From Cyclobacteriaceae bacterium (GTDB taxonomy: Bacteria > Bacteroidota > Bacteroidia > Cytophagales > Cyclobacteriaceae), in contig WFNR01000146.1 in the NCBI GenBank assembly GCA_015488485.1, forward strand, positions 1-44,172: DNA of 44,172 nucleotides, given 5' to 3'. The notes below the pieces were generated by a model, which was not told the origin of the DNA, made no database searches, and saw only the letters and a list, made by a program, of their open reading frames with translations. This document shows, piece after piece, positions 5,790-38,154 of the stretch. Numbering within the stretch: position 1 is the first letter of the stretch; each line of letters starts with the position of its first letter. A program made the position numbers and the translations under genes.

Positions 5790-8700
5790 TTACATTTTAA
5801 CCACTTTTGCGCGTATCGATCCTTTTTCGCTCAGCATGCTAATTACATAAATACCTGAACGCCAGTTGCCGGCATCGGGAATTACAAAATCAAGATTACC
5901 GCGATCGTCAGCCTGCTGTTTACCCTGGTAATATTGGCGACCAAACTCGTCCACCACCACTACCGGTACGTTCTCAAGGGCATTCAATCCGGCCACCACT
6001 ACCCTTACTTCATCCTGCACCGGGTTGGGGTAAGTTTGAATTTGCAGTGGCAGCGGGTTATCAGGCAGGCGCACCAGTACCAAACCGGCTTCGGTGGTAT
6101 TGCCATCAAAGTCGGTCTGCAGCAATTGATAATAGTTTAATCCCTGATACGGCTGTTCATCGCTAAAGGTATAGGTAACCGGCTCACTGCTATTGCCCGC
6201 ACCACTTATCTGTGCCAATTCCTCAAAGGTTTCACCGTCTTTAGAGCGCAACAATGTGAAATAATCATTATTGTTCTCACTGGCGGTTTTCCAGGTAAGT
6301 TCTACACCTCGACCTACTACTTGTGCCTCAAAACTAAGCAACTCTACCGGCAAGGCATTGAAGCCAAAGGCCGAGCCGAAAGTAATAGGACTCAACGAAG
6401 TAAGTGTGGAAGATGAAATCACCGTGCCGGCAGCCACTGTACCGGTTACGGCTCCCTGCCCTTCACTCTGCCAGTTGCCACCGGTGTAGTGCGCCACTAC
6501 CAGATCATTGCCGGTAAGGTCGGTAATATCGCTGCGGGTACCGTCTTCCCAATAGAGGCGTACCAGCGGGTCGGAAGTGCCTGACGTGCGGGTCAGATCC
6601 CAGTACTCAGCGCCACTTACATGATTCAAAGGACCATTGGCCTGGGTGATATTCCCCTGATTGGGAGCCGGAGCATCGAAATATTGCGCCACAAAACCAT
6701 TGGAGCCAGTCATGCTCTCTGCCCCAATACGGGCGTAATAAATACCATCCCCTACCGGGAAGGTCAGGTTGCCGGTGCCGGTAATTTGCATCGGGCCATC
6801 TACATAGCTATTGGCCGAGCCACCTGACAGGGTGCCGCCATTTAAATGCAGCAAATTGGTAGAGGTGGTATTGATAACCCCATCTGTTAAAGTAAGGGTA
6901 CCGGTTACCGTAACCGGGTCATTCAAAATAATCTGCGGCAGCGAGGCCGAAGTGTTGTTGAAGGTCAGGTTATTGAAAGTAATACCTCCGGTAGATGAGA
7001 TGGTCTGACCTGAGCTACTTGTAAAACTCACCGAGCCGGTACCTGATGTAAAGGAGGCAGTATTGGCAAAGTTTCCTTTAATATCAAGGGCATAAGAAGA
7101 GGCATCTGTATTGGCCCCCAATGTGATATCATTTTCAATATTAATGTCACTGGCCAGCGTTACCGTACCGGAACCGGAACTCACCAGATCATAAAGGTTG
7201 GAGCCTGATGCCTCTAATGTAATGCCTGTACCGGAGGTTTGCAGGTAGACCGAGCTGTTGCCATGAATAAAGGTACCGGTTGCCTTTACGGCAAAAGAGT
7301 TGGTACCACTGGTGTTGTTCAGGGTAACAGAGTGGGTAGGATCGGTAACCTGCAATGTACCATCTGTAACTTCAAAATTACAATTCACCAGTATGGCATC
7401 AGCAGTTTGGAATACAGCCGTACCATCGCCCCCCAGGTCGCTGTCAAATATTAAATTACAAAATGCATCTCCTCCGGTCTGGACGGTGATATTGCCGCTG
7501 GGGGCAATAAGCCTAACCTGGGTAGCACTGGCAGAGGTGTAGGTACCATTATTGTTCCAATTGCCCGTTACATCCAGATTGCCGCTGTTGTGAGTAAAGG
7601 TTCCGGAATTTATAAACGAACCGCTCAATACCAGGTCCGAGGTATTGGCAGCGCCATTGTAGGTTAGGGAGGCTCCGGCATCAATGGTCAGGTCTTTGGC
7701 AACAGCCGTACTGCCTGAACTGATTACCGGAGCAAACGGTGTGCCTGATGGAATGCGGACATCGTTAGTCGAAAGCGGTACATTGCCGGTGCTCCAGTTA
7801 CCGGCCGTGTTCCAATCCGAGCTAACTGTACCTTGCCAGGTGTTCAGGGAAGTATAAGTCCACCTGATTCGTCCATCCGCATCACCATTGGGCGGATTAT
7901 CATCCTCAAAGGCCGAACCGGCCAGAGCACCGGAGGCGTCATTGAAAATAAAATTATTGGCACCGGTCAAACGCCTGGCATTAACGGCAGGACCCGAACC
8001 GAATACTACATTATTAATAGTAACATCAGCACTTAAATCATTCTCCAGCAACAAATAACGCCCCCCAGCCGTGCCATCCAAAAAGCTACCATCTGACAGA
8101 TTGTCAGCAGAATGCAAGCTGGCATTGGTTCTTAGATACAAGCCTGTCGCATTCAGGTTACGAATTTCATAATAGCGCGCCTGAAGTGTACCCGAGGTTA
8201 TATCAAAACCAAAGGTGCCGGACTGGCTTTGCAATACGGCCGGACTGGCAGCAGAAGTACCTACCAGAATAAACTGCGCGTTGCCGGTCATAGTAATAGA
8301 AGCGCCATTACCCATTCTAACTGTACTGGTACCATTTGCACGTAGCTTACCCTCGTTGCTTATTGACAAAATATCGGCACCACCATCACCCATATTGAGT
8401 GTTTGGCCATTTACAGATAAGTAACCGGAAATTATGCTTAAATCATTCTGAATCGTCAGATCAGCCTGCATCACATAATCAGTCAGCGCTGCCGCATCTA
8501 TTACCAGGTCATAAAGCGTAGAGCCACCCATGTCAATTGTTTGTCCGGCACCGCTGGTGCTGGTAAGGCGCAGCGCACCCTGCCGGGCCACAAAAGAGCC
8601 GGCATTGGCTACATTGTTGCCTACCTCGAGGTCATAGTTACCACCCGACAAATCGAACGTAGCCCCGGCATTCACGGTAAAATCATGGCTTACCGTTGTA

Positions 8701-11700
8701 TTGCTGCCGAGTTGAAAATTACCTGACTCAATAGTAAGATCATAAAATGGCGAAGTGCCATTATTGATTACATCCACACCACCCGAACTAGCGAACACAA
8801 CCTTGCTATTTGATTCGGAGAAAGAACCGGAAGAGCCCCGGTTCCAGGCACCGCTTACTCTTATCTTGTCGTTGGCACTGTTGGTAATCAGAAAACCATT
8901 GACATTTGTATCTCCACTGATATCCAGGTCGGGGGCTCCGTCAGCAGTCGTTTGTAAGGTGAGAATAGCGCCCAAATCAATGGTAACCTGCTTGGCCACG
9001 GCACTGGCATCGGTTGTAATAACGGGTTGTAATACCGGAGTGGCATCTATCACCACCAGATCAGTAGCCGTGGGCACTTTATTACCACCCAGGCTCGACT
9101 GCCAGTTACCGGCTGTAAACCAGTCGGTAGTACCGGCTCCGGCTGTCCAGGTCAGGGTTTCAGTGCCCGTCCAGATAATCAGGTTGTTGGGGTCATTCTC
9201 ATAATCGGCCCCGGCAAAAGTACCGGTAGCATCAAAAAACTCTACCGTACCGGAAGTAGCAGTGGTTTTGGCCACATTATAGGCACCACCTCCCGGGTTG
9301 GTGGCAAACACCACATTTTCTATTCGCCCCGGGTTGCCAGTCAGATTCTGGGTGTTCTCAATATTCAGCATAACACCACCGGATGGGCCATTGGTAAAAG
9401 TACCATCACTAAAATTATCAGTAGCATCTATGGTAGCGGTACTTTCAATCTTAATACCGCCCGTACCCATGTATTCAAACAAATAGTTGCGTGCTTTGAT
9501 ATTACCCTGTACCGTAAAGTTATAAGTACCGGTGGAACTGCGGGTGATCACTACCGGAGAACCGGCACTACCTACCAGTTCGATACTCCCTGTAGAGGTA
9601 ACGGTAAGCGACACCTGGTTGCCCAACTCCAGGCGCCCTCCTGCTCCGGCTATATAGGTGCCGGCTATAGTAACCACATCCAGATAGTTGCCCAGCTTTA
9701 CGGTTTTACCGTTGGCATCAAAAGTACCATTGCTTACCGTGAACAAGTTGTTCACCTCCAGGTCATCCTGCAAGAGATATGTGCCACCGGTATTTACTAC
9801 CAAATCTTCAAATACAGAGCCGTTGGCAGTTAATAAACCGGTACCGGAAGCCTTGTTGAGCACAAACTTACCATCCGTTTCAACAATACCACCTGAACAA
9901 TTCAGATTGCCCTTTACATACAAGTTGCGATTGGTATATTCATTGCGGAAGCTACCATTTTGAATAATTAAATCGTTTTGAATGGTTACATCTATACCGT
10001 AGGCCAGATAACGGGCCGTACCGGCAGTTTTATCAATAACCAGGTCGTAAAAATCCTTGGTACCGGTCAAATCCGCCCTAATCTCCTGATAGCCACTACT
10101 ACTCCCGTCAAGTATTACCCTGCCTTGCCGTGCTATGAAGGAGCCCCCGTTATTATTATCCCACTCACCTGCCAAGTGTATCTCATAATTGTTGGTGCTA
10201 ACATCAAGGGTAGCCGTATTAAAACGCAGATAGCCATTTACATCAATATTACCACCAAGCGTTTTGGTATTGGCATTGAGCAGGTAGAGATTACCATACT
10301 GAACCCCGCGTATGGTTTGGTCGCTGGTGCCCTGATAACGAGTAGTGCTGGTAGCATCCAGGGCATAAGTACCAAAACCGGCCGGAAAGTTATTGGCCCC
10401 CAGGACATAAATATTGGTACCCGGCTCGGCAGTAAGCGTGCCGGTTCCGGTTGTATTGGTAAACAAGGAGGTCTCCAGCCGGATACCGGATACGGTATTT
10501 CTGAAGATCAGATCACCGGTAATATCGGTATCACCATATAAATATTTGTTGTTGGTGCCACCCAAATCCAGCGTATGAAATTTACTGGCATAGATATACT
10601 GATTGGCTGAGCGGTTAAACACAATAGTACCGTTGCCAGTATAGGCGCCTGTACCGGTCCAGTTCACCCCACTGAAATAATGGATACCATTGCCATCGTC
10701 AAAGGTGCCCGAAGCAGCTATGGTAACATCACCGTTCATGGTAAGGGTGGCGGTGCCGGCATCAAGGGTTGAATTCACCAGCAAGGTATTGTTTACCGTA
10801 ACACTACCCTGCAAGGTCTTGGTTAAGGTACCATCTACGGTAAGTGAACTAAAGGTTACATCTTTAATGGTTTGATTGGCACCATCCAGTACCACCGTAC
10901 CTGTTGTGCTGGTGCCAAATGCCCCGGGAGCATTGATGAGCATGTCACCACCCACATTGGCAGTATAGTTGTTGGTAGCAAACGATACCAGGCCATTAGA
11001 GGCTGTAATACTACCATCTATGTCCAATGTAGCCCCATTTATCAGGTAGGTAGCAGCACCTGTAAAGTTCAGGTTGTACAAGGTGGCATTATTGGGGTTA
11101 ATAGATACCGTTCCACCCGCTGCATTAAAAGTAAGGGTACCGTTGCCATGAATATATATACCGCTGTTGCCTACCGTCATGCCTCCGGCAATAAATACGG
11201 TAGAAGCAGGGTCGGCTACAGCCAGAATACCACTCAATGAACCCTGGCCGATTGTCAGATCGGTAGTAAGCACCAGGTCATTGCCATTATCCAGGGTAAG
11301 AATACCATCGGTGATAATCACCGACCGGGCATTGCCATCTCCGGAGGTAGCATTGATAATGGGGTTGTTGGAGCGCAAACCGATTATGGCATCCTTGGTA
11401 TTGTCGGGCACCCCATTATCCCAGTTGCCGGCATCCGACCAATCTGAGCTTACATTGCCAGTCCAGTTGGTTTGCGGCAGCACCGGCCAGTCTATTTTGG
11501 TGCCGTCACCATCATCCTCGTAGGTCTCCCCTGCCAATATGCCACTTATGGTACCGGCAAAAGTAAGCGTACCACCGGCACTGGCCGAGCGCCTTACATT
11601 ATAATGTACTCCTATTACCGGAGCGCCACTGTGATTAAAGGTTACATTGTTTACATTGCTCAGTCCGGTAGCATCAGCTTCGAAATTCAAATACACATAG

Positions 11701-14700
11701 TTACCCGAATTGGACGTACTCATATTGGACCAGGTACCATCCGAGAAGTTATTATTCGGGTCGCTGGTGGCCACATTGGCGCCCGCCTGTACATCCAGGC
11801 CGGCATTTACCAGGTAAGAGAACTCGTAATAACGGGCATTAATGGTACCACCCGATAAAATGTCGATGTCTATCCGGTTACCCCCTGCCGACCGATCGAT
11901 ACGGACCAGATTGTCACTGGCGCCTACTACATTCAGCGTGCCTGATACACTTAAGGTAGGATCGGCATCGTTTGTATCATCGCTACCATTGTCGGTAGCA
12001 TCAAACAACAAGGTAGAGCCGGGCGACACGGTAAGCGTAGCACCAGCCGCTATTGTATGGAATTCAGCATCAGGATTACCGGGATCATTATTTCCCAGGG
12101 TCAGGTCAAAACCATTAAGCACCAACTCGGCCCCACTACCCATCGTCAGGTCTTCCTGGATAGTAACATCTCCGAGCAAGGTATAGGTGCGGTTGTTAGT
12201 ACTGGTTTGGTTAAAGGTTACATTATAAAAATCATAGCCATTGTTGTCGATGCTTTTGGCCGTCCCGTCATTGCTTTCGAAAGCGATTGTAGAAGTATAA
12301 TCATAAAAAATACCATCATTTTGCCAGTTGCCCCGCACACTAACCCCCCCGACAGTTGTGCCGCCATCGTTCGACATGGAGAGTGTTACTCCGTTATTAA
12401 TAGTCACATCATCCACATCCAAGCTATCAATTACATACTTGGTACCCGAACCTGCAAAGGTGACATCCATAAAAGTACCGCTAAAATTGATTGTTTGATT
12501 ACCCAGCCTATCGAACACCACCGAGGCATTATTGGTAACCAATGTTTCGGTACCGTCAAAATTACCACTGGTAATGGCCAGATAGTGTGTAAGGCTGCCG
12601 AAATCTACCGTTGCAAAATTCAACACCTCCAACTGGCCACCATCTATATTCAAGCCATTGTTGACAATGGTTTTAGTACCACCCGGGTTTTCAAAACGGG
12701 TTGTTTGGAAGCTATGGTCGGCTCCCGGGTCAATGGTCTGGTTGCCGGTACCATTAAAGTTCAGCGTATTGGCAGTATGATTGAATGTACCGTTGTTGGT
12801 AAAGTTGGCCCCTGAAAAATCCATGTTGCGGCTCAAGGTTACGGTAACGCCACTATTCACAGTCAAGTCGCCTGTAATGCGGTAATGGTCTTGCCCACCG
12901 GTAAGAGACTTGGTACCTGAGCCGGCAAAAGTCAGGTTGGCAAAATCCAGATAGTCGGGATTGGTAGCATCATTGTCCACCAACGATTGATCTGCTCCGT
13001 CAAGGGTAACGGTAGTACCTACCGTAGGAGAATAATCACGAATATCAATTATTGAACCTGAAAAGGTCATGTTAAAACCACCATCAACCAGGGTAGCATT
13101 GTCATCCATGTAAAAATCACCATCAACATTCAGGTTGCCGTCAAGGGTGGCATTACCATTAGAGTTGACATCTAACCTACCATATACCGGAGTGGTATAG
13201 ATAATCTGGTTGCCGCTACCATTAAGGGTTACCCGGCTGGTCACCGCCAGGCTATAAGAGCCAAAGTTCTTGGGAAAGGCTGGCTCCGGGTCGGCCAGGT
13301 TATCAGTAATCACCCGACTTGTACCTAACATGGTGAAGCTCTTTCCTGCCGTACCGGTCATGGTGTTGCCATTCATATCGAGCGTAATACCGTCTTCTAT
13401 GGTCACATCACCAGTAATAGCCAGGTTATTATTCATGGCCTTGGTGCTGGTGCCCTTCAAAATCAGGTTGTTAAAACCGGTAATATCGGCATCCATGCCC
13501 CAATAATTACCAAAATGAATAAGCGTACCGGTACCTCCTGCCGTACCCCAGTTTACCTGCTGGCCACCTGTTGGGATGAACAAGCCATCAAACAAATTGA
13601 TAGTAAAATTATTGGCATTCAGTGTAACATCGGTATCATTCAACACAATGTCATCATTTACCGTGATATCACCCTGTAAAGTCTTAACAGGCGTATTACC
13701 GGCATTGACTCGCCCTACCCTTAAGTCGTTGTAGGTGGTAGCAAAGATATCCTGATCGGTATTGGCATAATAAAACACCTCTCCCCCGGTAAGACTATAC
13801 GAACCGAAAGTGGTAGGGAAGTTATTACCTTCTATCCGCAACTGCCCACCAGTCTGCGACAAAGTACCAGTAGCAGTACCGGTCACCACCACAGTAGGAT
13901 CCAGCTCTACTCTGGTTAAACCGGCCAGTACATTCATATCACCATTTACTGTAATAGAAACGCTCACAATCTTGGTAGCCGTACCGGAGAAAAAGAGCGT
14001 ATTAAAAGTAGTAGAGGCGCTACCACCTATTACCTGTGTGCCACCTCCGTCAAAGATCACGGCCCCCGAGCCGGTCTGGCTAAAAGACGTGCTGGTGGCG
14101 TTATTGGTCCAATCATCCCCAACTTTTACAATATATTGCCCGGCATCAAAAGTTCCCGTAAAAGTATTCTGAAAAGTGAGGTCGTTTTGTACCACCAGAT
14201 TGGAGGTAAGCTGCACATCAGCTGCCCCGCGGGGATTCAGGTTATAAAACAAGCCGCCAAAGATAGTTTGCGTACCACTGCCGGCAGTCAGGCGCACCTG
14301 CCCTGTGCCCGGGTCAAAAGTGCCTCCGCTGGCATTCCAGTTGCCATTCAAATCGATACGCTTATTACCGATTACACTAAAAGTGCCTCCCAGCAGATTC
14401 AAATCACCATTAACAGTAATATTGTTATTTAGATTATACTGGGCTCCGCTGGCATCTACCGTAAGGTTATAAAATGGGTCGCCATCAGTATTTAAGGAAT
14501 GTACTCCTGATGTGCCATCCAAGATCAGAGTATTGTTATTGGGTGTATAGGTGCCAGCATTGGAGAAGCTGCCTGCCAATCTGATGGTACTGGTGTTCTC
14601 CTGTACCAGCGAGCCGTTGTTGATGGACAGCAACTCTTGCACATCCAGGGTGCGGGTATTGCGTACGGTAAGGGTGATGTCATTGGCGCCTCCGGCATCA

Positions 14701-17700
14701 ATTACCAATTTCAGAGCCACGGCATCGCCCGCATTGATATCCACGGAGTAAGCCCCGCTTACTACTGAGTGGTCAAGCACCACCACATCGCTGGCAGTAG
14801 GCACGGCATCGGTCGTCCAGTTGGCAGCATCGTGCCAACTGGTGGTGCCGGCTCCGCCATCCCAGGCAATACCGCTACCACTAATAGTCCAGTTGATCTG
14901 GTTAAAGGTGTCGTCATCATAAGACTCTCCTGCCAGGGCACCCAGGGCATCCTGAAAAGTGGCAGCCAGCGCCCCGCCATGATCTACGGGAGCCGATACA
15001 TTATAAGTGGGCCCGGCATTGAAAATTACATTGCTAATGGTACCGGTAAAAGGAATATCCAGGGTAAGGTAGGCATTGCCCACGGCATTGCTGAAAGTAC
15101 CGTTGGAGAAATTGTTGGTAGCATCTATGCTGCCTCCGGTAATGTTAAGACCATTACCGGTTGAGTTACTTATCGAGTAATACTGTGCTTCTATGGTACC
15201 ACCAGTCATGTTAAAGGTGTAGTAGTCAGCCGTATCAGGGTCGCGCGATACCATCACAGCCGGATTGGCGGCCGTACCCACCAGGCGGAAAATACCACCG
15301 GTAATCGACACATCACTATCGCGCCCCAGCCGGAAGGTGGCGCCTGCGTCAATCTCCAACACACCTCCCGATACTACAATATCCTGGGTATCGGTAGTAG
15401 AAAAAGACACTGTATTGCCGTTAAGGTCGAAAGTGCCATTGCTTACCGTTAACAACACTCCGTTGTTGTTGGTATCAAGAAATTCAAGTTCCCCTGCCAA
15501 TTGATAAATTGCCCCCGGAGCATTAATTACCGTATAACGGAATAATGAGCCCCCTGGGTCAATAGTATGCGTGCCCGAGGTGCCATTAAAGGTTAATAAG
15601 CTATTGTTATTATTAAAATCGAATGTGCCATTGTTGGTAAAATTGCCGGCCACATACATATCGAAACCATCCAACTCCAGTTCCCCCCCGCTGTTGATGG
15701 TAAAGTCATTTTCAACTATTAAATCGCCATCCAATTCAGCCCGGCTGGTATTGGTATTAATCAGTACATCCCAAAACTGCTTACCGGCTGCCGGCCCGGT
15801 AGTGGTACCGGTAAAAATCTGCGAGTAACCACCGGAAAATTCAACCAGCCCATTGCGGGGTACAAAGACACCGGTGCCGGTATTGGTCCAGCTTTCTTCC
15901 ACCACGATCTTATTGTTGCCGGCACCTACATCAAGGGTTGCCCCGTCATTAATCTGCAGGCGACCGTTCAAGGCAATATTGCCCGACAGTGTTTTGGTCC
16001 CACTGCCAGCAATAATCACATCGTGAAAGGTAGAAGCGCTAATGGTCTGGTCAGCCCCATCGAATGTGATGCTGTTGTTGTGTTGATAGGTACCGTTGTT
16101 GGTCCAGTTGCCGGCTACGGTATGAGCCAGGTTTATCCCGTCAACTGTTGTGTTATTGATCGTTACATCACCGTCAATATTCAAACCATTGTCATAAAAG
16201 CGTTTTTCACCGGGCCCGGAAAATACCAAATTGGGGTACGTGCCACTGGCGTAGTTGCGGATATCCTGATCAATAGAACCATTGAAATGTATGGTGGCTC
16301 CGGGTAAGGTAAAAGTAAAAGAGGTACCGGTACGATAGTAGAAATTACGCCCTACATACAAGGTATTGCTACCCAGATTAAAATCACCCAGATTTTGCAC
16401 CAGGTCAAAATCACGAGCTACATGTACATCCGAAACGGCAATCACCGTTTGTGCAGCGCCATTATCGATATCCAAATCACCAAAAACATTATTGGCATTG
16501 GCATTGATGATTTGCGTACTTGCTGTACTGCTAAATGATACTGTACCGGTAGTCTGGGTAAAAACACCGGTACCGGAGTTAATCCAGTTGCCGTCCAGCA
16601 TATCAATAGCCCGGATGTTGGCATCTACTGTTATCCCATCATTGATAGTCAGGTCACCGCCCACGAACAAATCACCGTTCAACGTTTTGGTGCCGCTGCC
16701 GGCAAAAGTCACGTTACCGAAATCAGAAGCCGAAATCAACTGGTCGGAGCCATTGAAGGTGACCGTACCCGTCATATTATTGGTATAGGCCGTGCCCATG
16801 TTCCAGTTACCGGCCACCGAATGAGAAAATCCGCCATCGACAAATACCGGAGTTTCGGCAATACGGGTAACATTACCCAGCACTGTCATATCACCCGTGG
16901 CATTTTTATTACCGTTGCCCCGAAACTCCACATGACCGTAGGTTACCCCCGGAATACTCTGCGTAGTACCCCCGAAACGAATGGTGCTTTGCGGGTCAAG
17001 TGCTTCGGTAAAGTTGGCCATCATGGTGTTGAACTCCGATGAACCATCCGTGCGCAACTGCACATTGGCCCCTACGGTAAAGGTTCCCGTACCATTCATC
17101 TTGAAAGTATTAAAATCTACTACCAGATAATTGGTAGCCGAACCACCTGTATTGGTAGCTGAAAAGTTGGTTACGTTGACATCGGCTGCATCCAGATAAA
17201 AATAGCGTACTGCAGTAGGACTGGTATTGGTAATATTCAGGGTGGCAAAGGTATAGCTGCCACCTGTACCGGCCGGCTGAAGGGCAATATTGGCATCGGA
17301 TACCTCAAAAGTAAAGCTACCACCCGACTGGGTTACTGTAGATCCGGTATTGTTGTACAGATAACCATGCAACAAGTGATCATAGGTCTGTAAGTCAAAC
17401 GTAACCCCATTGTTCAGGTCGAGGTAGCCGGTAATGGTAAGCGGGCCATCTACCGTTTTAATACGCGAGCCGGTATCAGTACCAGACACAGCCCCCACCA
17501 CCAACCGGCCATAGGTAATATTACCCCTGATAGTCTGGTCAGCCCTGCGATCGTAGTGAGCCCGGGCGGTAGCATCAGCAAAAGTAATAGTACCAAAACC
17601 GGCAGGAAAGTTGTTGCTACCACGTATATAAAGTCCGGTGCCCCCGTTTACCAGCAGGGTAGCACCAGCCGTACCGGTTACCTGTCCGTCTTCCAGTACC

Positions 17701-18716
17701 AAATAGCCGGAACTCACCGTAAGATTACCCCCAACCGAGGTAGCATCCGGACTGGCATAATTGGAGAAATATACATTTCCTGAAATAATAATATCAGCCG
17801 TACCCAGACCAAAGCTATCATCATTATTGTCATAAGCCCGGCCACCGGTAAAGGTGATAGAGCCCGTAAAATTAACCGTACCCTCCTGACGCAAGCCGTT
17901 GAATTGGTGGTCTCCGCTGCCGTTCAAAGTAGCATTGGGGTAAACATAGGTTAGGTCATTGGCTACAATATTACCGGTAATGGTATAGTTTATAGCTGCT
18001 ACCGGATTAAAATACAACTGATCGAACGTGGCATTGCTGCCTATGTTAAGCGACTGATCGGCACTGCCATTGAGGGTAAGGCGACCATCGGTAGCATTAT
18101 AGATCGAGCCATTGTCTATGGTCAGATTGCCGGCCAATGTATGCGAATCGGAGGTAGTAAAATTGGTATTATTGGTAATTAACCAGTTACCATTGACCGT
18201 AACATTACCACCCGTAGTCACCACACCCCCTCCGCTAAAGGTCAGATGGTTGAAGGTAGCTGCTGCTGATATGGTTTGCACCAAAGGGGCATCAAACACC
18301 ACCGTACCCGTACTTGACAAAGCCCCGCTACCGTTTTCCGTCCAGTTGCCGGCAATATTTATCTGATTATCATTTGCTGATAGGGTAGATCCGGTATCGA
18401 TAATTAAGGTTCCTTCCAAATCCAAGGCAGCCAGTCCTGCCGGTAAAACCAAAGTACCTCCGGCTCCTCCTTGTCCTATAGTCAATGATTTGATGTTCAG
18501 GTTGGCGCTGGCCTGGTAGTTATGGCCATCATCTATGATAAAGTTGTCCAGACCATTGGTGAAATTGGGTGTAGCCCCACCACCGCTCGTGTCGGTCCAG
18601 TTGGCTGTATTATTAAAATCAGCGTTTGCCGTACTGTTATTGGAAATAAAGGTATTCTGACCCAAGGCCAGATTTACAATCATTAAAAGCAAAATGAAAG
18701 GGTAAAAACTCTTCAT
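5790..18716 (-). CDS. Giant T9SS-exported surface repeat protein (4308 aa)
   Basis: One uninterrupted 12.9-kb reading frame. A signal peptide (MKSFYPFILLLMIVNLALG) leads to more than 4000 residues of Gly/Asn/Thr/Ser/Asp-rich, Cys-poor short repeats. A recurring theme is GNWTNNGTF, then vtFnGtdQtI, then F.nLtfsGsGTKTL, then gdltIngGvtld, the pattern expected of a long right-handed beta-helix/solenoid. Four junctions (Trp near residues 1285, 2418, 3190 and 3627) share W-x-G...DW-x3-NW...VP...D and divide the protein into five modules of about 1250, 1130, 770, 440 and 680 residues, the last including the C-terminus. Near residue 4110 comes the LPVELLSFEA...WKTASENNNDYF domain common in T9SS proteins, and the last ~80 residues (TYPNPVQDEV onward to AKVVKM) are a type A sorting domain. 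Expected location is the cell surface or secreted; the role could be adhesin, biofilm matrix or S-layer-like. No catalytic domain was recognised. Confidence 0.93.
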   Translation of the reverse strand: MKSFYPFILLLMIVNLALGQNTFISNNSTANADFNNTANWTDTSGGGATPNFTNGLDNFIIDDGHNYQASANLNIKSLTIGQGGAGGTLVLPAGLAALDLEGTLIIDTGSTLSANDNQINIAGNWTENGSGALSSTGTVVFDAPLVQTISAAATFNHLTFSGGGVVTTGGNVTVNGNWLITNNTNFTTSDSHTLAGNLTIDNGSIYNATDGRLTLNGSADQSLNIGSNATFDQLYFNPVAAINYTITGNIVANDLTYVYPNATLNGSGDHQFNGLRQEGTVNFTGSITFTGGRAYDNNDDSFGLGTADIIISGNVYFSNYASPDATSVGGNLTVSSGYLVLEDGQVTGTAGATLLVNGGTGLYIRGSNNFPAGFGTITFADATARAHYDRRADQTIRGNITYGRLVVGAVSGTDTGSRIKTVDGPLTITGYLDLNNGVTFDLQTYDHLLHGYLYNNTGSTVTQSGGSFTFEVSDANIALQPAGTGGSYTFATLNITNTSPTAVRYFYLDAADVNVTNFSATNTGGSATNYLVVDFNTFKMNGTGTFTVGANVQLRTDGSSEFNTMMANFTEALDPQSTIRFGGTTQSIPGVTYGHVEFRGNGNKNATGDMTVLGNVTRIAETPVFVDGGFSHSVAGNWNMGTAYTNNMTGTVTFNGSDQLISASDFGNVTFAGSGTKTLNGDLFVGGDLTINDGITVDANIRAIDMLDGNWINSGTGVFTQTTGTVSFSSTASTQIINANANNVFGDLDIDNGAAQTVIAVSDVHVARDFDLVQNLGDFNLGSNTLYVGRNFYYRTGTSFTFTLPGATIHFNGSIDQDIRNYASGTYPNLVFSGPGEKRFYDNGLNIDGDVTINNTTVDGINLAHTVAGNWTNNGTYQHNNSITFDGADQTISASTFHDVIIAGSGTKTLSGNIALNGRLQINDGATLDVGAGNNKIVVEESWTNTGTGVFVPRNGLVEFSGGYSQIFTGTTTGPAAGKQFWDVLINTNTSRAELDGDLIVENDFTINSGGELELDGFDMYVAGNFTNNGTFDFNNNNSLLTFNGTSGTHTIDPGGSLFRYTVINAPGAIYQLAGELEFLDTNNNGVLLTVSNGTFDLNGNTVSFSTTDTQDIVVSGGVLEIDAGATFRLGRDSDVSITGGIFRLVGTAANPAVMVSRDPDTADYYTFNMTGGTIEAQYYSISNSTGNGLNITGGSIDATNNFSNGTFSNAVGNAYLTLDIPFTGTISNVIFNAGPTYNVSAPVDHGGALAATFQDALGALAGESYDDDTFNQINWTISGSGIAWDGGAGTTSWHDAANWTTDAVPTASDVVVLDHSVVSGAYSVDINAGDAVALKLVIDAGGANDITLTVRNTRTLDVQELLSINNGSLVQENTSTIRLAGSFSNAGTYTPNNNTLILDGTSGVHSLNTDGDPFYNLTVDASGAQYNLNNNITVNGDLNLLGGTFSVIGNKRIDLNGNWNASGGTFDPGTGQVRLTAGSGTQTIFGGLFYNLNPRGAADVQLTSNLVVQNDLTFQNTFTGTFDAGQYIVKVGDDWTNNATSTSFSQTGSGAVIFDGGGTQVIGGSASTTFNTLFFSGTATKIVSVSITVNGDMNVLAGLTRVELDPTVVVTGTATGTLSQTGGQLRIEGNNFPTTFGSYSLTGGEVFYYANTDQDIFATTYNDLRVGRVNAGNTPVKTLQGDITVNDDIVLNDTDVTLNANNFTINLFDGLFIPTGGQQVNWGTAGGTGTLIHFGNYWGMDADITGFNNLILKGTSTKAMNNNLAITGDVTIEDGITLDMNGNTMTGTAGKSFTMLGTSRVITDNLADPEPAFPKNFGSYSLAVTSRVTLNGSGNQIIYTTPVYGRLDVNSNGNATLDGNLNVDGDFYMDDNATLVDGGFNMTFSGSIIDIRDYSPTVGTTVTLDGADQSLVDNDATNPDYLDFANLTFAGSGTKSLTGGQDHYRITGDLTVNSGVTVTLSRNMDFSGANFTNNGTFNHTANTLNFNGTGNQTIDPGADHSFQTTRFENPGGTKTIVNNGLNIDGGQLEVLNFATVDFGSLTHYLAITSGNFDGTETLVTNNASVVFDRLGNQTINFSGTFMDVTFAGSGTKYVIDSLDVDDVTINNGVTLSMSNDGGTTVGGVSVRGNWQNDGIFYDYTSTIAFESNDGTAKSIDNNGYDFYNVTFNQTSTNNRTYTLLGDVTIQEDLTMGSGAELVLNGFDLTLGNNDPGNPDAEFHTIAAGATLTVSPGSTLLFDATDNGSDDTNDADPTLSVSGTLNVVGASDNLVRIDRSAGGNRIDIDILSGGTINARYYEFSYLVNAGLDVQAGANVATSDPNNNFSDGTWSNMSTSNSGNYVYLNFEADATGLSNVNNVTFNHSGAPVIGVHYNVRRSASAGGTLTFAGTISGILAGETYEDDGDGTKIDWPVLPQTNWTGNVSSDWSDAGNWDNGVPDNTKDAIIGLRSNNPIINATSGDGNARSVIITDGILTLDNGNDLVLTTDLTIGQGSLSGILAVADPASTVFIAGGMTVGNSGIYIHGNGTLTFNAAGGTVSINPNNATLYNLNFTGAATYLINGATLDIDGSITASNGLVSFATNNYTANVGGDMLINAPGAFGTSTTGTVVLDGANQTIKDVTFSSLTVDGTLTKTLQGSVTVNNTLLVNSTLDAGTATLTMNGDVTIAASGTFDDGNGIHYFSGVNWTGTGAYTGNGTIVFNRSANQYIYASKFHTLDLGGTNNKYLYGDTDITGDLIFRNTVSGIRLETSLFTNTTGTGTLTAEPGTNIYVLGANNFPAGFGTYALDATSTTRYQGTSDQTIRGVQYGNLYLLNANTKTLGGNIDVNGYLRFNTATLDVSTNNYEIHLAGEWDNNNGGSFIARQGRVILDGSSSGYQEIRADLTGTKDFYDLVIDKTAGTARYLAYGIDVTIQNDLIIQNGSFRNEYTNRNLYVKGNLNCSGGIVETDGKFVLNKASGTGLLTANGSVFEDLVVNTGGTYLLQDDLEVNNLFTVSNGTFDANGKTVKLGNYLDVVTIAGTYIAGAGGRLELGNQVSLTVTSTGSIELVGSAGSPVVITRSSTGTYNFTVQGNIKARNYLFEYMGTGGIKIESTATIDATDNFSDGTFTNGPSGGVMLNIENTQNLTGNPGRIENVVFATNPGGGAYNVAKTTATSGTVEFFDATGTFAGADYENDPNNLIIWTGTETLTWTAGAGTTDWFTAGNWQSSLGGNKVPTATDLVVIDATPVLQPVITTDASAVAKQVTIDLGAILTLQTTADGAPDLDISGDTNVNGFLITNSANDKIRVSGAWNRGSSGSFSESNSKVVFASSGGVDVINNGTSPFYDLTIESGNFQLGSNTTVSHDFTVNAGATFDLSGGNYDLEVGNNVANAGSFVARQGALRLTSTSGAGQTIDMGGSTLYDLVIDAAALTDYVMQADLTIQNDLSIISGYLSVNGQTLNMGDGGADILSISNEGKLRANGTSTVRMGNGASITMTGNAQFILVGTSAASPAVLQSQSGTFGFDITSGTLQARYYEIRNLNATGLYLRTNASLHSADNLSDGSFLDGTAGGRYLLLENDLSADVTINNVVFGSGPAVNARRLTGANNFIFNDASGALAGSAFEDDNPPNGDADGRIRWTYTSLNTWQGTVSSDWNTAGNWSTGNVPLSTNDVRIPSGTPFAPVISSGSTAVAKDLTIDAGASLTYNGAANTSDLVLSGSFINSGTFTHNSGNLDVTGNWNNNGTYTSASATQVRLIAPSGNITVQTGGDAFCNLIFDSDLGGDGTAVFQTADAILVNCNFEVTDGTLQVTDPTHSVTLNNTSGTNSFAVKATGTFIHGNSSVYLQTSGTGITLEASGSNLYDLVSSGSGTVTLASDINIENDITLGANTDASSYALDIKGNFANTASFTSGTGSVSFTSSSGQTISSTGGITFNNLTFNNTSASLPQIILNDPVTVTGTLTLTDGVINTTSTNLLHLNGGTLSGGSANSYVDGPMQITGTGNLTFPVGDGIYYARIGAESMTGSNGFVAQYFDAPAPNQGNITQANGPLNHVSGAEYWDLTRTSGTSDPLVRLYWEDGTRSDITDLTGNDLVVAHYTGGNWQSEGQGAVTGTVAAGTVISSSTLTSLSPITFGSAFGFNALPVELLSFEAQVVGRGVELTWKTASENNNDYFTLLRSKDGETFEELAQISGAGNSSEPVTYTFSDEQPYQGLNYYQLLQTDFDGNTTEAGLVLVRLPDNPLPLQIQTYPNPVQDEVRVVVAGLNALENVPVVVVDEFGRQYYQGKQQADDRGNLDFVIPDAGNWRSGIYVISMLSEKGSIRAKVVKM
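7500..18650 (-). repeat. Hierarchical protein-coding repeats in the giant gene
   Basis: Three levels are visible. (1) Dozens of solenoid repeats containing GNW, dQtI and gTKTL motifs. (2) A longer motif NFPxxFGtY...dQtI...Yg.L at about 17590, 13820, 13270 and 10380; the first and last are nearly identical in DNA. (3) A closing block (I.ArxY...NFSDGTF...LAGe.yedD...I.W) at about 15100, 11740, 9400 and 8090, each just before a W...NW junction at about 14864, 11465, 9149 and 7838. Repeat DNA of this kind recombines easily and is prone to assembly collapse. Confidence 0.8.
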
Positions 18717-35007: not shown

Positions 35008-37447
35008 GAGCAAAAAGATTTCAGCACTCGCCATCCTGATTTTTCTAACGTTACACGTCCTGGCCCAAACCGGAAGCATCAAAGGGCGTGTTACCGAACA
35101 AGATAATCAACCGCTGCCAGGGGCATCGGTGTATTTGAAGGATACGCAGATAGGCACCGCTACTAATGGCAATGGCTATTTTGTATTGTCAAATGTACCG
35201 GCTGGTCAATACACCCTGGTGGTTTCTTCTATCGGCTATACCACCGTAACAAAGACCGTAGAGGTACAAGAAAATACCACTGTTCATCTGGAATTTACCA
35301 TGCAGGAATCGCTGGCCAGCTTGCCGGAGATAACTGTAATGACCGGAGGTAATAGTGGTATAGACGATATTCCGGGTTCGGTAGCTTACCTCTCCCCCAA
35401 AACGCTTTCCAAGTTCAGTTATACCGATATCAACCGTACCCTGCGGGCCGTACCCGGCATCAACCTGCAAGAAGAAGACGGTTTTGGTCTGCGCCCCAAT
35501 ATCGGCCTGCGCGGCACTGGTACCGAACGTAGCTCCAAAATTACCATCATGGAAGACGGGGTACTCATGGCCCCGGCCCCCTACTCGGCTCCGGCAGCCT
35601 ATTATTTTCCAACTATCGGCCGCATGCAGGCCGTGGAAATTTTAAAAGGCAGCAGCCAGATAAAATACGGCCCTTACACCACAGGCGGGGCTATCAATCT
35701 GATTTCTACCCAGATACCCGAAGAACTGGCAGCCAGGGTAGAGCTACTGGCCGGCAGCTATGGTGGACGCAATGTACATACCTACGTAGGCAATAGCCAT
35801 AAAAACGTAGCCTATATGGGCGAGGCCTATATTTTTGGCTCCGATGGCTTCAAGACCCTTGACAATGGCGGTAATACCGGGTTCATCAGGCAAGACTACC
35901 TGGGTAAAATAAGGGTTAATACCAACCCGGATGCCAGGATATATCAATCACTTACCTTTAAGTTCGGCCAGGTACTGGAAACCTCCAACGAAACCTACCT
36001 GGGACTCACACAGGAGGATTTCAACCAAACCCCCTATCGCAGGTATTATGGCTCACAAAAAGACCAGATAAATGTGAGGCAGCAGCAATTGGCGCTTACC
36101 CATCAAATTAAATTTTCCGAGCAATTCAAGATAACCACTACCGCTTATCGCAACAACCTGCACCGCAACTGGTACAAGCTGGCCAAGGTAACCGACAGTA
36201 CCGGTACAGCCACAGGCATTACCGCTATTCTCGACAATCCACAAGCCTACCCGGAAGCACTGGCTATTATCAAAGGGCAAACCAGCACCAATCCCGATGC
36301 CCTGGACGTAAAAGCCAACAACCGCACCTACTATAGCCAGGGTATTCAAACAGTGCTGAGCAGTAACTACACTACCGGCAACTGGCAGCACATGCCCGAA
36401 GTAGGTCTGCGACTGCATCAGGACCAGATGGACCGTTACCAATGGGTGGATGAATACGCCATGAATGAGGGCGTAATGATGCTCACCAAGGCCGGCACGC
36501 CCGGCACCGAGAGCAACCGCATAGAAGGGGCCTCAGCCTTTGCCGCCTACCTGCAATACAAGCTGAAGTATGGCAATCTGACACTGGTACCGGGTTTGCG
36601 CTATGAAAACATCCTACTTAGCCGGCAGGATTATGGCAAGAACGATCCCGACCGCACCGGTACAGATTTGCAGGAAAGAAGCAACCGGGTAGCAGTTTGG
36701 ATACCGGGGGTGGGCATTGATTACCGGTTCAACCCATATATCAGTTCATTTGCCGGGGTGCACAAAGGCTTTTCGCCTCCCGGCTCCAAAGAAGGCACCA
36801 AACCTGAGGAGAGTATCAATTACGAATGGGGTGTACGCCTGAATAAGGCAGCCCTTTCCGGTGAAATGGTTTTGTTTGTCAATGATTACAGCAACCTGCT
36901 GGGCAGCGACCTGGCGGCAGCCGGAGGTGGTGGTAGCAACGACCTGTACAATGCCGGTGAGGTACTAACCAAAGGGCTGGAGTTCAGGATGTCGTACGAC
37001 CTGTTGTCACGTAACTTGTACACTCCTTTCAGGTTGCCTTTGTCGGTGGTTTATACCTACACCGACTCACGTTTCCAGAACAGCTTCGACAGTGAAAATG
37101 ACAGTTGGGGTCAGGTAACAGCCGGTGATGAATTTCCTTATCTGGCACATCATCAACTGGCTTTTGTAACCGGTCTGGAGCATAGCAAATTCAGCATCAA
37201 CCTGAGTGGCAAGTACACCAGTGAAATGCGCACCAAACCGGGGCAAGGTGTTATACCGCCCAATGAAAAGACCGATGCCTGGTTTGTGCTGGATGCCAGT
37301 ACCGCCTATAACCTGCATACCGGCATTGCCTTGTTTGCCAGCGTTACCAATATCACCAATAAGGTATATCTGGTTTCGAGACGGCCGGCCGGGCTGCGCC
37401 CCGGGATGCCAAGAGCCTTTAATATAGGCATTAAAGCCAACTTCTAG
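35006..37447 (+). CDS. fecA: TonB-dependent receptor, FecA-like (iron chelate uptake)
   Basis: The protein has 813 residues. It has a signal peptide (to LAQ, residue 21), then a carboxypeptidase-regulatory-like beta domain (about 23-108, GSIKGRVTEQDNQPLPGASVYL), the plug (about 110-230) with NRTLRAVPGINLQEEDGFGLRPNIGLRG, RSSKITIMEDGVLMAPAPYSAP and GGAINLIST, then a 22-strand barrel with the late GFSPPGSKEGTKPEESINYEWG region and a C-terminal Phe (IGIKANF). The plug closely resembles FecA-type ferric dicitrate/siderophore receptors. It lacks the FecA N-terminal signalling domain in the classical form, and no FecIR genes are adjacent. A palindromic operator over the promoter points to metal repression. 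Its TAG stop overlaps the stop of the convergent DUF1569 gene in the shared tetramer CTAG. Confidence 0.92.
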   Translation: MSKKISALAILIFLTLHVLAQTGSIKGRVTEQDNQPLPGASVYLKDTQIGTATNGNGYFVLSNVPAGQYTLVVSSIGYTTVTKTVEVQENTTVHLEFTMQESLASLPEITVMTGGNSGIDDIPGSVAYLSPKTLSKFSYTDINRTLRAVPGINLQEEDGFGLRPNIGLRGTGTERSSKITIMEDGVLMAPAPYSAPAAYYFPTIGRMQAVEILKGSSQIKYGPYTTGGAINLISTQIPEELAARVELLAGSYGGRNVHTYVGNSHKNVAYMGEAYIFGSDGFKTLDNGGNTGFIRQDYLGKIRVNTNPDARIYQSLTFKFGQVLETSNETYLGLTQEDFNQTPYRRYYGSQKDQINVRQQQLALTHQIKFSEQFKITTTAYRNNLHRNWYKLAKVTDSTGTATGITAILDNPQAYPEALAIIKGQTSTNPDALDVKANNRTYYSQGIQTVLSSNYTTGNWQHMPEVGLRLHQDQMDRYQWVDEYAMNEGVMMLTKAGTPGTESNRIEGASAFAAYLQYKLKYGNLTLVPGLRYENILLSRQDYGKNDPDRTGTDLQERSNRVAVWIPGVGIDYRFNPYISSFAGVHKGFSPPGSKEGTKPEESINYEWGVRLNKAALSGEMVLFVNDYSNLLGSDLAAAGGGGSNDLYNAGEVLTKGLEFRMSYDLLSRNLYTPFRLPLSVVYTYTDSRFQNSFDSENDSWGQVTAGDEFPYLAHHQLAFVTGLEHSKFSINLSGKYTSEMRTKPGQGVIPPNEKTDAWFVLDASTAYNLHTGIALFASVTNITNKVYLVSRRPAGLRPGMPRAFNIGIKANF

Positions 37448-37546
37448 TCCGCCAGGATATCCCTGATTATCCTGCAATGGTGGCGCGTATGAACGATCAT
37501 CAAACGAATGGTCTGCGCTTTGTTGTGTACACCAAAAGCAGGATGC

Positions 37547-37551
37547 TTGAA
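37547..37551. repeat. Target-site duplication, left copy (TTGAA)
   Basis: Matches the TTGAA at 37779-37783 on the other side of the insertion; only one copy is needed by the DUF1569 reading frame. Confidence 0.8.
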
Positions 37552-37778
37552 CCCAAAATTGTCAATAGAATTGACAATTTCGCCCTTCGGGCATGACGAA
37601 GCGAAGCTTGTCATGCTCTGGCAGCATCGCCATGAGCTGACGAAGTTATTGCTTGCCAATAACTTGTCAGGGTTAACCGTGACAATTGAAAATCCTTTTT
37701 GAGTTATACAAATAGTTACATAACTCATTGGTTTTCAATTCGTCAATTGTCATTAGAAAATCTAATGACAATTCCCGG
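37552..37778. mobile_element. MITE-like, hairpin-chain insertion element (227 bp)
   Basis: This non-coding element is flanked by 5-bp TTGAA duplications. Its ends are imperfect inverted repeats (14 of 18 positions; shared core AATTGTCA and TAGA). Each end forms its own hairpin: left 37556-37580 (11-bp stem, 3-nt loop), right 37745-37773 (perfect 13-bp stem, AAA loop). Inside are further hairpins at 37591-37616 (GCATGAC / GTCATGC), 37637-37670 (CTGAC...GTCAG with a long stem) and nested arms 37681-37692/37732-37744 around GAGTTAT/ATAACTC (37701-37726). Nearly every stem begins with TGAC/GTCA. No transposase is encoded, so it would move using an enzyme elsewhere, in the manner of MITEs, or of REP-like elements if a RAYT-type enzyme is used. 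Confidence 0.75.
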
Positions 37779-37783
37779 TTGAA
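37779..37783. repeat. Target-site duplication, right copy (TTGAA)
   Basis: Second copy of the 5-bp duplication bordering the 37552-37778 element. Confidence 0.8.
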
Positions 37784-38154
37784 GTGGCTGGTAGCAGGTA
37801 GGTCAGTACAGGCTATCAGTACCTGTCTGGCAGCCTGCACCAGGCCATGCAAGCTATCTTGAGTAATAGCTTTACTCGCTACCACTGCAGCCGGAGCCTG
37901 CCCCCTGCCCCGCGGAAACCAACCCAGCTTCTGCACCCACCAGCCCGACCAGGATAGCTTGGGGCGGTATTGGGCCGGATCGGACTTTTGCAGAGCCTTG
38001 CTCATGCCTATAATGGCCCGCAGGCTGTGGTCGATATGCCAGCCCACCGAAGCCGCAGAAACAGACGGCCGTAGCCGTTCGTGGTAGGCGATCAGGCCCT
38101 CCAGCTTGTTTATTTCTTCACTAAGAATGGACAACATGTTAATTTGGCGGAAGC

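Follow-up and report, generated by a model that had tools for sequence, protein, structure and literature searches.

Among described mobile systems, the IS1380 family of IS elements (NF033539; e.g., ISEcp1) shares an end motif, ends starting with CC, and AT-rich target duplications of 5 bp (or 4 bp) with an element that we analyzed in a window of 44,172 nucleotides, the whole stretch of DNA studied, from a Cyclobacteriaceae bacterium. Duplications of 5 bp are what PMC2887853, in its account of ISEcp1, describes for that IS1380-family member. The element differs from the family in lacking a transposase gene, in its palindromic ends, and in being built of two units. It is small, multicopy, and transposase-less, with target duplications and IS-like ends, as are the bacterial MITEs known as TIMEs and MITEPye1 in the descriptions given by PMC4133298 and PMC11578231; these are tied there to Tn3 and IS1182, whereas our element is tied to IS1380, consists of two units in tandem, and shows loop inversions. 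The BOX elements of Streptococcus pneumoniae, as outlined in PMC3049150, are likewise modular composite hairpin repeats whose modules are gained and lost; the likeness drawn here is one of build, and in our element the outer ends and duplications indicate an enzyme of the IS1380 family. REP elements of the GTAG/CGTC type and their RAYTs resemble it as short palindromic DNA but have tag features, in the portion of PMC3733652 that sets them out, that our element lacks. A limited literature search found no IS1380-derived or tandem bacterial MITE. We read the window element as an IS1380-type MITE whose novelty lies in the tandem arrangement of its two units and in its record of loop inversions.

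The original prediction was of a 227-bp element (37552-37778) bordered by TTGAA repeats, with imperfect terminal inverted repeats and a palindrome at each end, and all of these features were borne out. TTGAA is exact on both flanks (Table 1). The outer inverted repeat (37546-37572 and 37758-37784) matches at 78% over 27 nt, and the terminal palindromes have fully matching arms (100%), which measure 11 bp on the left (37556-37566 and 37570-37580) and, as predicted, 13 bp on the right (37745-37757 and 37761-37773). The further claim of a chain of hairpins with stems starting in TGAC or GTCA held with one correction. As DNA, the element folds at -55.6 kcal/mol against a mean of -21.6 for dinucleotide shuffles (z -10.8); as RNA, its fold has a z of -10.5, and none of the 200 shuffles was as good in either case. 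The TGAC/GTCA motif occurs 10 times, about six times as often as in dinucleotide shuffles (mean, 1.65), and not one of 2000 shuffles had as many. The chain is not uniform: its hairpins are read as those of two units split by TTAA (37673-37676), each of which also folds alone (z scores in Table 1). The TGAC/GTCA stem starts follow from the terminal palindromes, each of which contains the transposase-end motif, TTGTCAWTAG, and an inverted copy of it. The only open reading frame of at least 100 aa that touches the element is the tail of the gene that it interrupts.

Removing the element and one TTGAA in silico restores this gene as a single open frame of 153 aa on the minus strand, which scores 27.4 bits with DinB_2 (cut-off, 24.8). 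The DinB-like protein was matched in 3 of 39 genomes searched, the host included. In one relative (G023), residues 4 to 151 of the 153 run uninterrupted at 49% identity; the match in G003 is in two pieces, and the same-genus genome (G001) gave no match to the protein in this 39-genome search. The window element is a mobile element that landed inside the DinB-like gene, presumably by transposition, to judge from the sequence.

Further copies, whose absence the original prediction had named as grounds for giving it up, do exist in the host genome (3.17 Mb in 182 contigs, 94.9% complete), where 14 places carry parts of the element. Eleven copies, including that of the window, are complete (181 to 353 bp); the partial ones are cut by a contig end (C50), consist of unit 2 only (C12), or are a solo palindrome of 39 bp (C37). 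The same-genus genome is without a whole-element match, and a search of viral contigs with the right-end palindrome gave no exact match. A twelfth complete host-type MITE lies, together with an IS right end, on a contig labeled Sulfurimonas (WFPU01000266.1; L143), which is probably mis-binned. Among the 12 host-type copies, the duplication is exact over 5 bp in 6 and over 4 bp in 2, and the other 4 have one mismatch. In G102 and G150, which belong to a single genus other than the host's and are different species, 18 distinct elements have exact duplications of 5 bp in 11 cases and of 4 bp in 2; this set counts identical sequences once and omits L188, L190, and L191, which are truncated at contig ends, and L192, whose left end is poorer. 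Of the 30 composites together (11 from the host, L143, and the 18), 17 are flanked by exact duplications of 5 bp and 4 by exact ones of 4 bp, and 29 have flanks that agree within one mismatch. When the 30 flank pairs were re-paired at random, which keeps the AT-rich target and so controls for shared target preference, exact 5-bp duplications averaged 3.7 and those of 5 or 4 bp averaged 5.7, against the observed 17 and 21, and none of 20000 re-pairings reached either value. An assembly error in the repeat is possible, but the exact duplications at 6 of the 11 host copies argue against it at those. That the element is MITE-like and makes a 5-bp target duplication, as first proposed, is upheld by the 11 complete host copies, by duplications beyond those in shuffled pairs, by the interrupted DinB-like frame, and by ends that it shares with an IS1380-family IS.

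Table 1. Features of the element and of the gene that it interrupts, in window coordinates
Feature	Coordinates	Strand	Remarks
5' part of interrupted DinB-like gene	37779..38137	-	
3' part of interrupted DinB-like gene	37444..37551	-	
Whole element, read as a composite MITE	37552..37778	+	227 bp; fold z -10.8
Left target duplication TTGAA	37547..37551	.	
Right target duplication TTGAA	37779..37783	.	
Unit 1, CCCAAAATTGTCAATAG ... GTCAGGG	37552..37672	+	fold z -7.0; diverged solo unit 1 in G102 (L205)
Palindromic left end of unit 1 (loop, AGA)	37556..37580	+	loop TCT in L143
Small hairpin M1, GCCC-TTC-GGGC	37582..37592	+	in 11/11 complete host copies
Optional 45-nt two-hairpin module M2+M3	37593..37637	+	missing from 4/11 complete host copies (C85, C28a, C28b, C109)
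Palindromic right end of unit 1, M4 (loop, CTTGC)	37638..37669	+	
TTAA between units, read as shared target duplication	37673..37676	.	stop codon of the interrupted frame falls here
Unit 2, CCGTGACAATTG ... AATTCCCGG	37677..37778	+	fold z -7.6; solo in host C12 and at 8 G102 sites
Long hairpin of unit 2 (M6)	37680..37745	+	inner left arm altered to match right arm in window copy
Palindromic right end of unit 2 (loop, AAA)	37745..37773	+	loop inversions among copies

The end motif of the MITE (CCC..AATTGTCAWTAG) is also that of an IS1380-family IS that is intact in relatives, and the enzyme that moves the MITE is probably that of such an IS, as far as comparison of sequences can tell. With at most one mismatch, the motif occurs in 30 of 148 family genomes, against 6 genomes, once each, for a reversed control pattern. 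A full IS with matching ends (G006:C47; L121) measures 1473 bp and encodes a 436-aa transposase; a more distant one (G166:C339; L122) measures 1472 bp, also encodes 436 aa, and has ends with 4 mismatches. Their transposases score 254 and 250 bits, respectively, with the NF033539 IS1380 profile (cut-off, 180). Of two further copies, one (G006:C79; L101; 1472 bp) has a broken frame and the other (G020:C14; L100; 1065 bp) is internally shortened. Duplications at the six IS copies examined are exact over 5 bp at L123 and over 4 bp at L122, with one mismatch at the other four, and the IS left end also carries inverted copies of the end motif. In the host, the exact left IS end (CCCAGAATTGTCATTAGA) stands at the edges of contigs C145, C34, and C177, and the exact right IS end stands at the edge of C103, beside a 42-aa transposase C terminus that is 79% identical to that of G006. 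Against this partnership, the interior of the putative partner IS, whose ends are CCCAGAATTGTCATTAG, is absent from the 182 contigs of the host assembly, which hold only the contig-edge ends and these 42 aa, as is expected for a repeated IS, and the MITE carriers G102 and G150 gave no transposase match to the G006 enzyme at an E value of <=1e-10. An IS1380-family DDE transposase would move the non-autonomous MITE in trans into TTAA-like 5-bp targets. A second IS1380 member of the host (G000:C165:1564-2844; L124) has different ends (CCCGGATTATGCAATAG) and one internal TGA. Host contig C15 (L056/L094; positions 1-352) carries a left end of IS type, about 150 bp long, that leads into an open frame truncated at the contig edge; a 72-aa portion of this frame is similar to part of a 280-aa G014 ORF (L062). 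This frame was rejected as an IS transposase, since its only relative besides the host among 59 genomes was that G014 ORF, in which no transposase features were seen.

At its center, the window element reads GGG-TTAA-CCG (37670-37679), and its G102 counterpart reads GGG-TTAA-CCC. An element ending in GGG and one starting in CC(C/G) that share a TTAA duplication would give the observed center, and the hairpin chain looks like two smaller hairpin-ended MITEs in tandem that share one TTAA target duplication. Across the host copies and the G102/G150 elements, GGGTTAACC is exact in 9 of the 18 latter and in 5 host copies, another 5 have the junction AGGTTAACC, and in the rest it is altered or absent. 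Unit 2 also stands alone at nine sites (C12 in the host and eight in G102), seven of which lie between exact TTAA or TTAAA; of the two exceptions, L195 is without a duplication and L197 has one mismatch. The match at L202 needs an extra G. No remnant of unit 1 was found within 200 bp upstream of the eight G102 sites, and a ninth candidate there (L203), whose left end was not recognized, was left out. Because TTAA is the target, some of the 4-bp TTAA matches at solo units would arise in any case. Unit 1 was found alone once, as a diverged copy of 79 bp in G102 (L205), in another genus than the host, with TTTA on both flanks and with its own two ends agreeing at 14 of 18 positions. With one unit landing in the TTAA duplication that flanks the other, the two would have become neighbors, and the pair, reading ...GGG-TTAA-CC(C/G)..., may then have moved as one via its outer ends, in that order. 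We consider it likely that the window element is a composite non-autonomous IS1380-type MITE, consisting of two units joined at TTAA and moved in trans by an IS1380-family transposase. Such a tandem would offer a simple origin for bacterial hairpin-chain repeats, in which MITEs with palindromic ends insert into one another's target duplications and from then on travel together. In many G102 elements (L170-L199), the unit 2 hairpin retains its base but has its interior replaced by a CCCGCC(TT/AA)GGCGGG hairpin.

A single IS1380-type MITE could have acquired its internal hairpins in place; GGGTTAACCC would then be just one more palindrome, and solo units would be deletion derivatives formed via a cryptic inner end. 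The TTAA-centered palindrome is self-complementary, the ends of unit 2 match poorly, its inner end having little in common with the IS end beyond CC(C/G), and composites outnumber solo units among the loci extracted, all of which fit such an origin. However, solo copies of unit 2 in two genera start precisely with the CC(C/G) that follows TTAA, and solo unit 1 stops exactly at GGG before TTTA; we regard a single MITE as unlikely. We find it barely credible that the hairpins were moved by the tyrosine transposase of a REP/RAYT system, a kinship that the original prediction had raised, given that the element has target duplications, that GTAG is absent, and that CGTC lies only within stems, so that the unpaired tag described in PMC3733652 is lacking. 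RAYT genes do occur in all 8 genomes searched, above the cut-off in 6, including the host, and an 18-nt remnant of the MITE left end adjoins one RAYT gene (NF047646) at seemingly the same place in G102 (C32; L112) and G150 (C86; L107); apart from this remnant, no module sequence lay at the best RAYT locus in any of the 8 genomes (8 of 36 RAYT matches examined).

The other possibility first suggested was a structured RNA or DNA function. A structured RNA or regulatory element under selection, merely mobile in origin, would agree with the very strong predicted RNA fold and with stems that are kept across genera while their sequences change. Yet no Rfam family matched window positions 37300-38000 (4227 families, 0 at E values of <=1), no terminator-like site was found, and promoter-like sites number 2 against 0.7 expected; moreover, the window copy interrupts a gene, and modules vary freely between copies, which leaves this explanation very improbable.

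The copies of what we read as a composite MITE differ from one another in their loops, in their arms, and by whole hairpins. Among the 8 copies with the right-end stem, the loop is AAA (3), TTT (3), CAA (1), or TTG (1), which are reverse-complement pairs. Exact reverse complements are also found in the M4 loop (TTTAC in 4 copies, GTAAA in 1) and in the left-end loop (AGA in 10, TCT in 1), and a G102/G150 hairpin reads GCC-TT-GGC in 12 elements and has the loop AA in 1. In the unit 2 hairpin of the window copy, unlike in other copies, the inner left arm matches the reverse complement of the right arm, which resembles the quasi-palindrome correction that PMC3820800 describes, in its treatment of the subject, in yeast. 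Loop inversion and arm correction may both come from template switching at extruded hairpins, and if the loop inversions hold, the copies would be natural records of hairpin extrusion in living cells.

Whole hairpins distinguish even near-identical copies, such as C56 and C145 (1 of 131 shared positions differs) and C11 and C109 (4 of 131), and the window copy has a direct repeat, TGACGAAG, at 37594 and 37638. Elements of relatives are similar to the short host form, and the sequences suggest that this form may be older and that extra hairpins were gained. As C56 combines the left half of C150 with the right half of C145, recombination between copies likely plays a part, and gain, loss, and exchange are inseparable in these copies. 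Such recombination weakens a reading that we hold to be quite doubtful, namely, that the inner hairpins are cassettes inserted or lost cleanly while neighboring loops flip, through extrusion in the cell and rewriting, whether by an unknown enzyme that acts on hairpins or by template switching. Hairpin modules as free host repeats were rejected as well: the 353-bp C145 copy gave 62 matches in the host at E values of <=1, nearly all of them known copies or IS ends, the exceptions being C82:2483 (26 nt; E value, 0.0018), C28:39858 (29 nt, 83%; E value, 0.52), and C90:9185 (16 nt; E value, 0.97). Elsewhere in the window, positions 5790-18716 on the minus strand hold one very long ORF of 4308 aa.
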